Source: Bdellovibrio sp. ZAP7 (lineage in GTDB: Bacteria; Bdellovibrionota_B; Oligoflexia; Oligoflexales; RGVZ01). Taken from it: a stretch of 64,000 bases of DNA. The notes under the pieces were generated by a model that ran no database searches, had not been told where the DNA came from, and was given only the letters and a program-made list of their open reading frames with translations. Positions within the stretch are counted from its first letter, which is position 1. Each line of letters opens with the position of its first letter. The translations under genes were made by a program, and so were the position numbers. Below, piece by piece: positions 30,460-34,965 of the stretch. The stretch is taken from contig CAMDKS010000010.1 of assembly GCA_945900755.1 (NCBI GenBank), positions 1 through 64,000 of the forward strand. Reading direction: 5' to 3'.

Positions 30460-30511
30460 CGGCCTTGGGATCGATGGTCCGTTAGGATCTCGGCGAGTGA
30501 CCACGAGCGTT

Positions 30512-31378
30512 TTATATACCCAACAATGAGGCTTCGTGGTCAATGAGATGTTTGATTCTTTCAGTAAATGGCCCAAGCGACGTTAGCAGATAATTGAATC
30601 CGTGAGCCTCTTTTACCCATTTTGTAATATCACGTTGAGGCAACGAGTTCGACGGACACCCGAATTGTCCGAGTGCGGGGCCTTTTTTTGCAAGCCAGTA
30701 GATAGAACTTAAAATCAGATCTAATTTTGAATACCAAAGCATAGATTGAGCGTTCTGATCATTTCGATAAAGATCTGCAACGAGTTCGTATTCCCCTCCC
30801 TTCATTAGCGAGCTTCTGACTAGAGCGGGTTGCATGGACCACCAAACGCCTGGATTTTTGAACGCGCTTGAATTTATCAAAGCTAAATTAATCACTTCAG
30901 CCCACACTAAGCTGCCCATGCTATGAGTAATAACAATAGGCCCTGGTTTGTCTCCAAATAGCCAACTTTTTGCAAACGTATAGAGACTCTGAGAGGAGTG
31001 TTTCGCCCTTTGTTCAATTTCTTTCAGCCTTGACCCACAAACCGGTATGTGTTTCAGCAGAAATTTGAGTATGTAAAAATGGGACGAGCCGAAGGATTCG
31101 TTGATTTTTTTATCTTTTAAAATTAAGCCATTCCAAAAAAATAAATAGATCTTGCGATCAAGAATTTTATTGGGCCCCATTGCTGAGAGTATTGGAACCA
31201 CCAGTTCTCGAATAGCCTCGCTTGGACTTGAGTATTCAAGTCCGTGAATAAATAGTATAGGAGGCCTGTTTTCACTAGTTTGATCCGCGCAGTCAACCTG
31301 AGCAAATCGGCCGTCTTGAAAACACTGCCACATTGTGTTTTCAAGTGGATCTGGTTGTAAGTGGCCATTTAGCTTCAT
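30512..31378 (-). CDS. Alpha/beta-hydrolase (lipase/esterase-like)
   Basis: 288 residues, AGGAGG upstream of the ATG. The alpha/beta-hydrolase core shows ILFIHGLE (oxyanion region) and VITHSMGSL, where the nucleophile Ser sits in a H-S-M-G elbow, resembling PGAP1-like and lipase-type esterases rather than classic peptidases. A candidate catalytic His lies near the C-terminus. Substrate unknown; no partner genes nearby. It is the first gene of the accessory stretch that breaks the cdaA-ybbR-glmM order and has lower G+C than ybbR by eye. Confidence 0.65.
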   Translation of the reverse strand: MKLNGHLQPDPLENTMWQCFQDGRFAQVDCADQTSENRPPILFIHGLEYSSPSEAIRELVVPILSAMGPNKILDRKIYLFFWNGLILKDKKINESFGSSHFYILKFLLKHIPVCGSRLKEIEQRAKHSSQSLYTFAKSWLFGDKPGPIVITHSMGSLVWAEVINLALINSSAFKNPGVWWSMQPALVRSSLMKGGEYELVADLYRNDQNAQSMLWYSKLDLILSSIYWLAKKGPALGQFGCPSNSLPQRDITKWVKEAHGFNYLLTSLGPFTERIKHLIDHEASLLGI

Positions 31379-31689
31379 AAATACCTCCTCGTTTTTGTCA
31401 TAAAAATAAAGGAAATAAAGGCGCCATAATCAGAGTGAGCTTCGCCCGTCATCGAGCTTGATTTCTACTACCAATTTAAATAGCTCGCATATATTTAAGA
31501 CAAAGATTGGATAAAGTTTGAGTTAAGTCGCCTGAGATCGTCGTAGCAATACTCATTATTCGCATTCGGCAAAAAAACGTCGTTCACGAGTACGAACGAC
31601 ATCTTCAACCAAGAATACTCGCGAAAAATTGACAATGTGTTGTACTAGACGCATGAATTTGCTAGCGTTGGCGCGAGGATGGTTCAGAG
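31379..31689. other. Divergent intergenic region with a minus-strand terminator
   Basis: No gene. Contains a good rho-independent terminator read on the minus strand (see 31571) and a possible -35 element TTGACA at 31629-31634 for the rightward monooxygenase, whose -10 box is weak. Confidence 0.35.
31571..31600 (-). terminator. Orphan minus-strand terminator or leader attenuator
   Basis: GTCGTTC and GAACGAC form a perfect seven-base-pair stem (31579-31600, eight-base loop), followed on the minus strand by G and seven T. The only minus-strand gene nearby starts downstream of it, at 31378. It therefore either attenuates a leader transcript of the hydrolase, ends a small RNA, or is left over from a rearrangement. 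Confidence 0.6.
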
Positions 31690-32901
31690 ATGATGCACGA
31701 CTTACCTGCCGCAAATAATATAGCCGCCACCAAGGTCGTGATCGTCGGAGGAGGACCTGCTGGAATGGTGCTTGGCCTGCTACTAGCCCGCGCGGGATTG
31801 CAGGTTACCGTTTTGGAACGAAATCCTGATTTTGAACGTGAGTTTCGCGGGGAAATTCTGCAGCCACGATTTATGCGTGTTGCCGACCAAGCCGATATTC
31901 TTGACATCATTCGTGCGATTCCCCACGAAACATTTTCAGAAATGCGCTTGTTTCTAGGCCCCCTCCGAACAGCCGCCATTCAAGTAAAGAAAATCGACAA
32001 GCGGTTTCCATTTGTTACATGGATGACGCAGCCCATGATGCTTAAAGGACTCCATGAGGCGGCTCGAACGTTTCCAAATTTCAAAATGGTTTTTGATGCC
32101 AACGTACAACAGATCATGTGGGATCAAGGAGTGTGTACTGGCGTTGAATACGACCTCCTTGATCAGCATCATAAAATTGACGCCCACTTAGTGGTGGGTG
32201 CGGATGGCCGATTTTCAAAAATGCGCCGACTTGGTGCTTTTGAACTCGAATATGCCCATCATGAATTGGATGTTATTTGGTTTGAGACAAATCGGCCGAA
32301 GAGCTATACACACGGCGCCGATTTCTTTTTGTCCGCTGATTTTCCGATTGTTCTTTTGCCTAAAGCCCCTGAAAAAATTCAGTGCGGAATTCTCGTAGAT
32401 CCGGGTGCGGCCAGATCTCTCCTAAAACTTGGGGCAGAGTCGTTGGCCCGCAAACTAAATGAAACCCATCCGATGTTCGAAGAATTTTCAAAGTCACTCG
32501 TCGATTTGCACGCATTCACAGTGTTAGACGGCAAAATTGAGTTCGTGAAAGAGTGGGCCAAAAACGGTCTTCTCCTCATTGGCGACGCAGCCCACACGTG
32601 CTCACCGGCTGGGGCTATCGGTGTCACCATTGCGACTGAAACGGCGGTGGTAGCAGCGCGAGAGATTATCCGCTGCGCAAGGTTGCAGACGTTTTCACGG
32701 GCCGATCTTGCCCCCATTCAAGCGAGCAGGTCACAGGAAATTCGCACCATACACCGATTCCAGCGGGGATTTGTAAATAATATTCGCAAATCTAAAGGCA
32801 TGAGCCGCACTCTGCTTACGTCCCTACTTTTTCTCATGATAAAAACTGGCATAGCCCCTCGACTCATGCGAACCATCCTCACTCGCTCTACGCCACTTTA
32901 G
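31690..32901 (+). CDS. FAD-dependent monooxygenase
   Basis: 403 residues. The Rossmann FAD motif VVIVGGGPAGMVLGLLLA is at the start and the second flavin motif IGDAAHTCSPAGAIG lies at about residue 297, together typical of PheA/TfdB-like or UbiH-like aromatic-ring hydroxylases. A middle segment GADGRFSKMR is the DG motif. The substrate is unknown: it could be a phenolic or an isoprenoid-quinone precursor. No ubiquinone genes or aromatic-degradation genes are adjacent. It stands alone between two accessory features. Confidence 0.8.
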   Translation: MMHDLPAANNIAATKVVIVGGGPAGMVLGLLLARAGLQVTVLERNPDFEREFRGEILQPRFMRVADQADILDIIRAIPHETFSEMRLFLGPLRTAAIQVKKIDKRFPFVTWMTQPMMLKGLHEAARTFPNFKMVFDANVQQIMWDQGVCTGVEYDLLDQHHKIDAHLVVGADGRFSKMRRLGAFELEYAHHELDVIWFETNRPKSYTHGADFFLSADFPIVLLPKAPEKIQCGILVDPGAARSLLKLGAESLARKLNETHPMFEEFSKSLVDLHAFTVLDGKIEFVKEWAKNGLLLIGDAAHTCSPAGAIGVTIATETAVVAAREIIRCARLQTFSRADLAPIQASRSQEIRTIHRFQRGFVNNIRKSKGMSRTLLTSLLFLMIKTGIAPRLMRTILTRSTPL

Positions 32902-33254
32902 TTTAATAGCAGACGCGGTCGTTAACTTGTGGACTTGTGATTGATCTTAAAGAAGACGAAACCGCCATGCGATGCGTATGCATCGAGCTCTTTCCCATCG
33001 ACCAACGCCTTCATCATGTAAGGGGTGGGCAGTGTTGGATGCTTTTTGAACACGATAATGTCGGACGTCGTTCCTTAAACGTTAGGACTCATTTTCCAAG
33101 CCTGTGCTGCCGCAAGTCCATAATCCATGGTTTAGCAGATTGTAGTGCAATTACTGTTGGTTTCAGTCGGCCGCTAACAGCACAATAAAGAGGCAGTACA
33201 CCGTGCAAAATGTGTTGGTTGGACGCACGGCACCGTAGGCGACACTGCTGCTGC
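32902..33254. other. Gene-free gap with one broken small ORF
   Basis: 353 bases without an intact gene. A minus-strand frame interrupted by an in-frame stop is described separately (32922-33128). An 83-codon plus-strand frame at 32937-33188 has an unnatural composition and overlaps it; I do not call it. Confidence 0.3.
32922..33128 (-). pseudogene. Small gene interrupted by an in-frame stop
   Basis: A 68-codon frame begins MDYGLAAAQAWKMSPNV, meets TAA at codon 18, and continues in the same frame as GTTSDIIVFKKHPTLP through HGGFVFFKI to a stop. The part after the TAA has natural composition and secondary-structure-like patterning. One substitution (CAA to TAA) would explain it. No family recognised and no ribosome site seen, so this may also be chance. 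Confidence 0.35.
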
Positions 33255-34121
33255 TTATTCGTGGATGGCAACAAGTGTTTTAAGGAAATTAAAGACTGTG
33301 GGAGATGGGTTTACTTGTCCTCGCTTTAGGTTACTTAAATGCACAGGGGATACCCCTAACAGTTTGGCGATATTTTTGTCTTTTAAATGTGCTTTCATCT
33401 TCAATGTCATCATGCTTTCATAAATTTCCTTAACCATGATTTTTTTGAATGCCTTCATAGCACGGCGGTGTTCATGTTCGGCGATTGCATCACACGCCAA
33501 ACATTGAAGTAATTGTATACCTGAGAGCGCCTCCAGATTAAACGGGCGAAATCCGCGGATTTCACCTAATGGTATCTGTCTCGTACGCCCTCCGCAGTCA
33601 GCGCAGACTCTCTTCTTTAGATGGCTATTCCAATTTCGAACGCGAGTGAGATTTTCTGAAATTTTTAGAACCGGTACCTTGTCAATTTTTGGGATTCTAA
33701 AGCCGAGTTCTAAAAACTCGGGATCAATTTTTGCGATTGAAGAAGTCAACTTGCTTAATTGCGTGTACAGTCCACCGAATACTTCATTTCCATTAATATC
33801 TAAAAAATGGGACTTAATTTTTACGGCCATTTGCCCAGAAATAAACCCAGTTTTTTTTAATACGACATACGAGAACGCAAGCTGTTTAAGTGAGGTTGGA
33901 TCTTTGTTTGCGAGCATTGTATCTAGCAATTTTTCAAATTGAAACGAATCAAAGAAAGTCGAATATCTGTCTAGAATAGCAATGACGCTGCCAGGTATAA
34001 TCGGGTGCTCCAAACTTTCAGCCAAAGCGTCCATAACAATTTTCTCAGGTAACTTATTAGAAAAGATCATTGGTGAGTTAAACCAACCACCAATGGAATT
34101 GAGTTCAGAGAGTATACTCAT
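33255..34121 (-). CDS. MqsA/YgiT-like zinc-pair and helix-turn-helix protein with long N-terminal extension
   Basis: 288 residues. Residues 1-165 are helical with no recognised family. A Cys pair CADC (173-176) and a second pair CLAC (207-210) bracket a segment ending in L-x-GIQLLQC, the spacing and look of the zinc ribbon of MqsA/YgiT antitoxins. Residues about 244-282 are an XRE-type helix-turn-helix (IAKLLGVSPVHLSNLKRG). The start overlaps the preceding gene's stop by ATGA, so the pair is translationally coupled. It resembles an antitoxin/repressor with an extra domain; what the N-terminal part does is unknown. The gene order (putative enzyme first, antitoxin-like second) fits a toxin-antitoxin cassette. 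Confidence 0.65.
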   Translation of the reverse strand: MSILSELNSIGGWFNSPMIFSNKLPEKIVMDALAESLEHPIIPGSVIAILDRYSTFFDSFQFEKLLDTMLANKDPTSLKQLAFSYVVLKKTGFISGQMAVKIKSHFLDINGNEVFGGLYTQLSKLTSSIAKIDPEFLELGFRIPKIDKVPVLKISENLTRVRNWNSHLKKRVCADCGGRTRQIPLGEIRGFRPFNLEALSGIQLLQCLACDAIAEHEHRRAMKAFKKIMVKEIYESMMTLKMKAHLKDKNIAKLLGVSPVHLSNLKRGQVNPSPTVFNFLKTLVAIHE

Positions 34122-34666
34122 TTAAAATAACTCCTTATATTTGCCTCAATTTCCATTTTTTCTCTTGCCCAACGCCCTCCCTTTAGCATTGAAAAAAGAT
34201 CGTCTGTACATCCCAACAATTCTTCTTGAGAAGCTTTCATATGGGTTGAAAGCGCTTTTATATCCTTCATAATTTCCCAACTTCCGCGGGAAAATACCGC
34301 AAAAAGCTTCGTTAGGATCAAGTCTCGACGTTCCAATGGGAGCAGGGAAATGTGCTTTCCGCTAAAGACGGGCACCTGTTTAAGTGCACGCTTACGCCAA
34401 CCCTTGGGCAACAGAGTGTCGAAATCGAAAAACTCAGAGGCATGATCATTGAACCATTCATGATTGACTTCGGAACTGGCGGCTACCTTTGCTACGAGGT
34501 CCTTCAATGTGTCCTGTAGGCGATCGACAGAATCAATGTCCATGGATGCATCACCCGAGTAGCAAGTATGTATCACGAGCCCGCCGCAAATGATGACTTT
34601 GTATTTTCCTGAAAGCTCTGAATCCAGGGCTTCTAATAATTTTTGACTATCGATTGTTGGCCGCAT
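34118..34666 (-). CDS. Nucleotidyltransferase-fold protein (DUF6036/AbiEii-like), candidate toxin
   Basis: 182 residues, AGGA eight bases before the ATG. A GG loop (28-29) and a D-x-D pair (Asp43, Asp45, in SMDIDSVD) recall the metal-binding motif of the minimal nucleotidyltransferase fold; HEWFNDHASEFF and LPLERRDLILTKLFAVFSRG follow the DUF6036/AbiEii-type layout. Such proteins serve as toxins in type IV and related systems by adding nucleotides to tRNA or other targets. Coupled by a four-base overlap to the MqsA-like gene. An AT-rich 150-base stretch upstream probably holds the promoter. The DxD motif is present but the rest of the family signature was judged by eye. Confidence 0.6.
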   Translation of the reverse strand: MRPTIDSQKLLEALDSELSGKYKVIICGGLVIHTCYSGDASMDIDSVDRLQDTLKDLVAKVAASSEVNHEWFNDHASEFFDFDTLLPKGWRKRALKQVPVFSGKHISLLPLERRDLILTKLFAVFSRGSWEIMKDIKALSTHMKASQEELLGCTDDLFSMLKGGRWAREKMEIEANIRSYFK

Positions 34667-34894
34667 ATTTTGATTCCTACATGCCTATATTACCAATTAT
34701 ATCGGTATTTTAATATAAAAACTTAATGTCAGTTTATTAAAAATAGTTAAATCACCGTAATTATTTCACTAAATACAATATTTTGCCCTAAAATACTTGG
34801 GGGGACATTCATGGGAACCAACCTTGTTTCATCAATTTTACTGAGGTAGGATAAAAACAGAATAGTGCGCCGTGCGCCAAACCAGGACAATATC

Positions 34895-34948
34895 TGTAGT
34901 GCCGCACTAATCAATACTTATGATTTCATTGATTATTGCGGCACTACA
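34895..34948. repeat. 21-bp inverted repeat between tsaE and the NTase cassette
   Basis: Arms TGTAGTGCCGCA... and ...TGCGGCACTACA pair over 21 positions with one mismatch around a 12-base loop. It lies in the 299-base gene-free gap upstream of the NTase gene and downstream of the tsaE stop. A T-rich stretch (34961-34968) follows on the plus side after 12 bases. The outer arm resembles a hairpin at 63830-63861. Confidence 0.7.
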
Positions 34949-34965
34949 GCCTTAAAACTATTTTT

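Follow-up and report, generated by a model that had tools for sequence, protein, structure and literature searches.

A pair of overlapping genes in a 64,000-nucleotide stretch of DNA from Bdellovibrio sp. ZAP7 (the window) probably encodes a nucleotidyltransferase (NTase) toxin and its antitoxin, in which the N-terminal domain predicted to neutralise the toxin has been kept and the DNA-binding half has been exchanged for one that resembles MqsA. A preliminary description of this DNA had proposed a nucleotidyltransferase paired with an antitoxin-like protein that carries a zinc site and a helix-turn-helix (HTH), and that proposal is supported by the score of the first protein against DUF6036, by its motifs, and by the MqsA-type cysteines and HTH of the second. 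The features discussed here are the following, numbered by window position:

30460 to 34965, no strand assigned: 4.5-kb accessory insertion between ybbR and tsaE, from comparison with the congeners L086, L087 and L088
34118 to 34666, minus strand: DUF6036-family NTase gene, 182 aa, predicted toxin
33255 to 34121, minus strand: partner gene, 288 aa, predicted antitoxin and autorepressor
34532 to 34585, minus strand: NTase motifs I and II, GG28-29 - x13 - D43-I-D45, metal/nucleotide site, from the alignment
34262 to 34309, minus strand: NTase motifs III and IV, K120-L-F-A-V-F-S-R127 ... D135, from the alignment
33612 to 34121, minus strand: N-terminal helical domain of the partner (N-domain), residues 1–170, with well-supported homology to the N-terminal domain of DUF6036-NTase partners
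33492 to 33605, minus strand: zinc-binding knuckles of the partner, C173-x2-C176 - x30 - C207-x2-C210, MqsA spacing
33273 to 33404, minus strand: XRE-type HTH of the partner, about residues 240–283, from HTH_3 and PDB profile matches
34691 to 34707, 5′ of the NTase start: TACC-N9-GGTA, an imperfect palindrome and candidate operator, read from the sequence and speculative

Both open reading frames are present on the minus strand, the NTase gene first and the zinc-HTH partner gene second, and the four-base overlap first reported for them can be read directly from the DNA: the NTase stop and the partner start share ATGA at 34118–34121, and AAGGAG lies just 5′ of the partner start. Their low G+C content, also reported earlier, is 39.6–42.0% versus about 47–48% around the pair. 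The palindrome lies just downstream of a promoter-like −10 (34712–34717) and is a candidate, no more, for the operator of the NTase–partner operon; promoter and terminator scans gave results near chance, with the promoter scan not above it.

The suspicion that these are accessory genes is borne out by comparison with three congeneric genomes. In L086, L087 and L088, tsaE and ybbR are convergent neighbours that overlap or lie no more than 7 bases apart, whereas in the window they are separated by the 4.5-kb insertion, which those genomes lack and in which the NTase pair is accompanied by a hydrolase-like ORF and a gene for an FAD-binding protein. Flanking repeats marking the ends of the insertion were not evident. 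The hydrolase-like ORF (30512–31378) has a lipase-like pattern (FIHGLEYSS, HSMGS) and no Pfam match, and the FAD-binding protein (31690–32901) is monooxygenase-like. Just past the end of tsaE, at 34894–34949, there is an inverted repeat whose 22-nt arms are 95% complementary and enclose a 12-nt loop (CTGTAGTGCCGCACTAATCAAT), which to judge from its sequence is probably a terminator.

The NTase passes the Pfam model for DUF6036 (PF19502) over residues 19–127, with 25.4 bits against a gathering cut-off of 23.6, and it contains the family motif GG-x9-13-DhD with a 13-residue spacer. In an alignment of 33 diverse sequences (the window NTase and 32 homologues), G28, D43, D45 and K120 are invariant and G29, T/S41, W71, N73 and D135 nearly so, D135 being conserved in at least 90%; the GG...D-x-D pattern originally picked out in the single sequence is thus present, and both of its aspartates, Asp43 and Asp45, are invariant. 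The D-x-D motif lies in a fold that AlphaFold2 models with confidence (pLDDT 90.5, pTM 0.84) and that has nucleotidyltransferases among its weak structural matches. The top Foldseek matches include JHP933, MenT1 and ANT(2'')-Ia, with MntA also among the weak matches, and all have E values of at least 0.2. Because none of these is significant by itself, our fold assignment rests mainly on family and motif.

Relatives of the NTase occur in the same order, in the same phylum and in other phylum-level groups. The window NTase lies on a very long branch (2.05) with weakly supported placement (90/49), and the five nearest sequences in the tree, by path, all have a downstream partner with the N-domain. 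Neither tblastn searches of plasmids with the NTase and the partner protein nor searches of viral contigs for both proteins gave any match; the sole match in the genome_contigs set (L001) was rejected, since it rests on the letters DINGNEVF, shared by chance with a protein that is not related. A second DUF6036-like NTase, very divergent, is also encoded in the window's genome (G000:C53:14205-14435, L031, listed alongside L026 of G003), with a small partner of some 100 aa upstream of it. It is very improbable that the NTase simply does housekeeping work alongside a transcription regulator, for example in RNA or small-molecule modification, and has no role in toxicity or defence: ANT(2'')-Ia does appear among the weak fold matches, but the patchy distribution, the insertion into a conserved locus, the several copies of DUF6036 NTase in the genomes G189 and G462, the overlapping genes and the rapid divergence all speak against it.

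The active site can be compared residue by residue with that of MenT1, whose catalytic residues are T39, D41, K137 and D152 (PMC10435456): the counterparts in the NTase are S41, D43, K120 and D135. S41 sits two residues before D43, and both this spacing and the fifteen residues between K120 and D135 equal those of MenT1. Motifs I–IV of AbiEii have also been described, with KLxAaxxR as the form that motif III takes in COG4849 (PMC3985639). K120–R127 of the NTase (KLFAVFSR) comes close to that form, whereas the second Asp in motif IV of AbiEii (+DxxD) is absent from the NTase. The window NTase does not match the Pfam AbiEii profile (PF08843), and its relative L009 scores 19.9 bits against a cut-off of 22.5.

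The only cysteines in the partner protein are residues 173, 176, 207 and 210, and their 3/31/3 spacing is identical to that of the zinc ligands of E. coli MqsA, Cys3, Cys6, Cys37 and Cys40 (PMC2791442); in the alignment they are kept in L003 and L004. Residues 168–283 share 34% identity with an MqsA-like protein from the same order (E 9.5e-13), and the PDB profile matches of the HTH are XRE repressors and MqsA, so that the CxxC...CxxC and XRE HTH in MqsA style, as initially described, are indeed there. The profile scores are 20.1 bits for HTH_3 (cut-off 23), 13.0 for PF15731 (MqsA; cut-off 30) and 18.4 for TIGR03830 (cut-off 61.8), and because the two MqsA scores fall far below the curated cut-offs we refer to the C-terminal half as MqsA-like and not as a formal MqsA member. 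There is no MqsR gene beside the partner gene, whose neighbours are the NTase gene and, past a gap, the FAD-binding protein gene. An ORF adjoining L003 was considered as a possible MqsR and not confirmed.

The 165-residue N-terminal helical domain reported for the second protein is likewise present. The preliminary description had suggested that the pairing of the two genes with this extension could be new; the extension stands but is not itself the novelty, since a match to the profile of one set of partners (class A) identifies it as a divergent copy of the conserved partner domain of DUF6036 NTases. The exchanged, new part of the protein is the MqsA-like end. In hhalign, residues 3–174 align collinearly with the class A profile with P 9.8e-5, and a further comparison gave P 3.7e-4; the alignment stops at residue 174, where the zinc module begins. 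The class A score of 33.0 compares with maxima of 27.3 in 300 shuffles and 23.3 among unrelated ORFs, and every sequence that scores higher against class A is itself an NTase partner. A single pairwise comparison over the same N-terminal stretch matched L080 (27% identity, E 0.003). Class A was the only class to show homology, whereas classes B, E and F, each taken by itself, did not; a comparison with four partners gave P 0.029, and against a mixed profile of 25 partners the N-domain scored no better than two unrelated ORFs. Because these smaller or mixed profiles gave no clear result, we regard the homology to the class A N-domain, which is read from sequence profiles, as well supported, though short of overwhelming. 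For the partner, the AlphaFold2 model can be used only over residues 1–70 and, in outline, for the HTH; beyond residue 70 it is poor (pLDDT 59).

Co-occurrence of homologues of the two genes, which the preliminary description had left to a search of neighbourhoods, proved to be consistent. In 49 of 71 non-redundant NTase loci, profile searches detect an adjacent partner that shares the N-terminal domain; all but two of these 49 partners (47) lie directly downstream on the same strand, mostly overlapping the NTase gene or within a few bases of it, and they occur in several phylum-level groups. They recurrently consist of a helical domain at the N-terminus with an ArsR-like winged helix after it, and homology links subclasses A, B, E and F to one another (A–B, P 1.8e-19; B–F, 3.9e-22; B–E, 1.2e-9). 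A PDB search with A4 returned winged-helix matches only, the L010 partner consists of the N-terminal domain alone, and no model in Pfam, NCBIfam or PADLOC matched the N-terminal domain of these partners. Our literature search found no paper that mentions DUF6036 or this partner. Another 15 of the 71 loci have a different, XRE-type partner, mostly upstream. Upstream XRE-type proteins of ~185 aa (L029, L019, L032, L020, L021, L069, L074, L075 and L078) share a conserved C-terminal FRRNNIFVL..FL.R motif and seemingly form an unrelated partner family.

No MqsA-like module was found among the other sampled NTase neighbours, and in a census of CxxC motifs in NTase neighbours the hits outside the window were limited to a MetRS and two partners whose extra tail is zinc-ribbon-like. 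The latter two (L036:1961-3244 and L061:234-1568), which come closest to the window's arrangement, are class B partners to which a C-terminal tail with CxxC pairs has been added. Searches with the partner protein for a second copy of the N-domain plus zinc-HTH architecture yielded only plain MqsA-like proteins and a short weak match (L084); because only one instance was found, the architecture could be a recent or non-functional fusion.

These distributions bear on which part of the partner would act on the toxin. It might be the zinc domain that neutralises, as that of MqsA does for MqsR, with the N-domain serving some other purpose: MqsA binds its toxin through the zinc domain (PMC2791442), and in the larger PanA antitoxins it is zinc domains of the MqsA type that neutralise MqsR (PMC10440598). 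We consider this most improbable here, as the neighbour is an NTase and not MqsR, no sampled NTase relative has an MqsA-like partner, and what those partners have in common with the window is the N-domain. Type IV behaviour, in which the partner would protect the target of the NTase and repress the operon without binding the NTase, also appears unlikely. AbiE, an NTase toxin with an HTH-containing antitoxin, has been reported as such a non-interacting system (PMC3985639), and the window NTase shares motifs I–III with AbiEii. The winged HTH (wHTH) of AbiEi, however, is N-terminal, whereas the window partner has no match to AbiEi in Pfam and carries its HTH at the C-terminus, and the association of the N-domain with the NTase alongside an exchangeable DNA-binding module is a better fit to protein–protein contact.

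In at least three relatives (L016, L023 and L044) the NTase is broken while the partner next to it is intact: the L016 and L044 NTases have an internal stop and that of L023 is truncated. Some caution is due with draft genomes, where such breaks may be sequencing errors. The pattern fits an NTase that is the costly half of the pair. The opposite assignment, with the helical partner as toxin and the NTase as its antitoxin or modifier, would follow HEPN-MNT (type VII), where a nucleotidyltransferase AMPylates the toxin. NTase antitoxins exist (PMC11586414), and MntA is among the weak Foldseek matches, yet we find this assignment very unlikely: by eye, the partner lacks the HEPN RxxxxH motif, and it carries its own DNA-binding module; motifs III and IV of the NTase are of the AbiEii/MenT kind; and broken partners beside intact NTases, the reverse of what we observe, were not clearly seen.

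The mechanism that we favour has the DUF6036 NTase as the toxin of a two-gene module. MenT toxins stop translation by extending tRNA with nucleotides at its 3′ acceptor end, and because the active-site residues of the NTase resemble those of MenT, its target is, by analogy, probably also tRNA 3′ ends, to which it would add nucleotides and so stop translation. The helical domain of the partner (residues 1–170) would bind and block the NTase, and the C-terminal MqsA-like zinc-HTH module would dimerise on the operon promoter and repress it. We assign neutralisation to the N-domain and operator binding to the C-terminal half because the former is constant among the partners and the DNA-binding part is variable. 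The antitoxin appears to have arisen by exchange of its DNA-binding half, since the N-domain of its relatives carries an ArsR-like winged helix.

More broadly, we are slightly more inclined than not to see in DUF6036 NTases and their helical partners a widespread, unnamed class of toxin–antitoxin systems, of which the window would represent a natural domain swap onto an MqsA-type zinc-HTH. If this is true, a new domain for toxin neutralisation would define the class and set it apart from MenAT and AbiE. The window would then amount to a natural experiment, in which the toxin family is the same and the DNA-binding half of the antitoxin has been exchanged; the N-domain, as the part unchanged across exchanged antitoxins, is likely to be the neutralising one. 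A common NTase–partner couplet for which Pfam, NCBIfam and PADLOC have no partner model is in any case a testable candidate for such a class.

Among known systems and families, the pair is most directly comparable to the other DUF6036 couplets, with which it shares the NTase family, the gene order, the short overlap and the N-domain; their partners have at the C-terminal end an ArsR-like winged helix (with a further tail in a few), which in the window partner is replaced by the MqsA-like zinc-HTH module. With MenAT and AbiE (DUF1814/AbiEii) it shares GG..DxD, the K and D of the active site with MenT1 spacing, the pairing of an NTase with a small partner gene and a similar predicted outcome, but the window has the NTase gene first and no N-terminal wHTH of the AbiEi type. 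JHP933, an H. pylori NTase (PDB 4o8s/4ok0), gives the best nucleotidyltransferase structural matches to our NTase model, although at only about 12% identity and E 0.2–0.6. The resemblance to MqsRA lies in the C-terminal half of the partner, where zinc knuckles with 3/31/3 cysteine spacing are followed by an XRE HTH; unlike MqsRA, the window has no MqsR gene and its partner has an extra 170-residue N-terminal domain. Modular antitoxins are known from the Panacea (PanAT) systems, in which PanA combines an MqsA-type zinc-HTH with another domain (PMC10440598). The likeness is that a neutralising domain is recombined with exchangeable modules, the MqsA-type zinc-HTH among them (PMC10440598); the difference is that no Panacea domain was detected in the window partner, whose added domain is instead N-terminal and belongs to the NTase-partner family.
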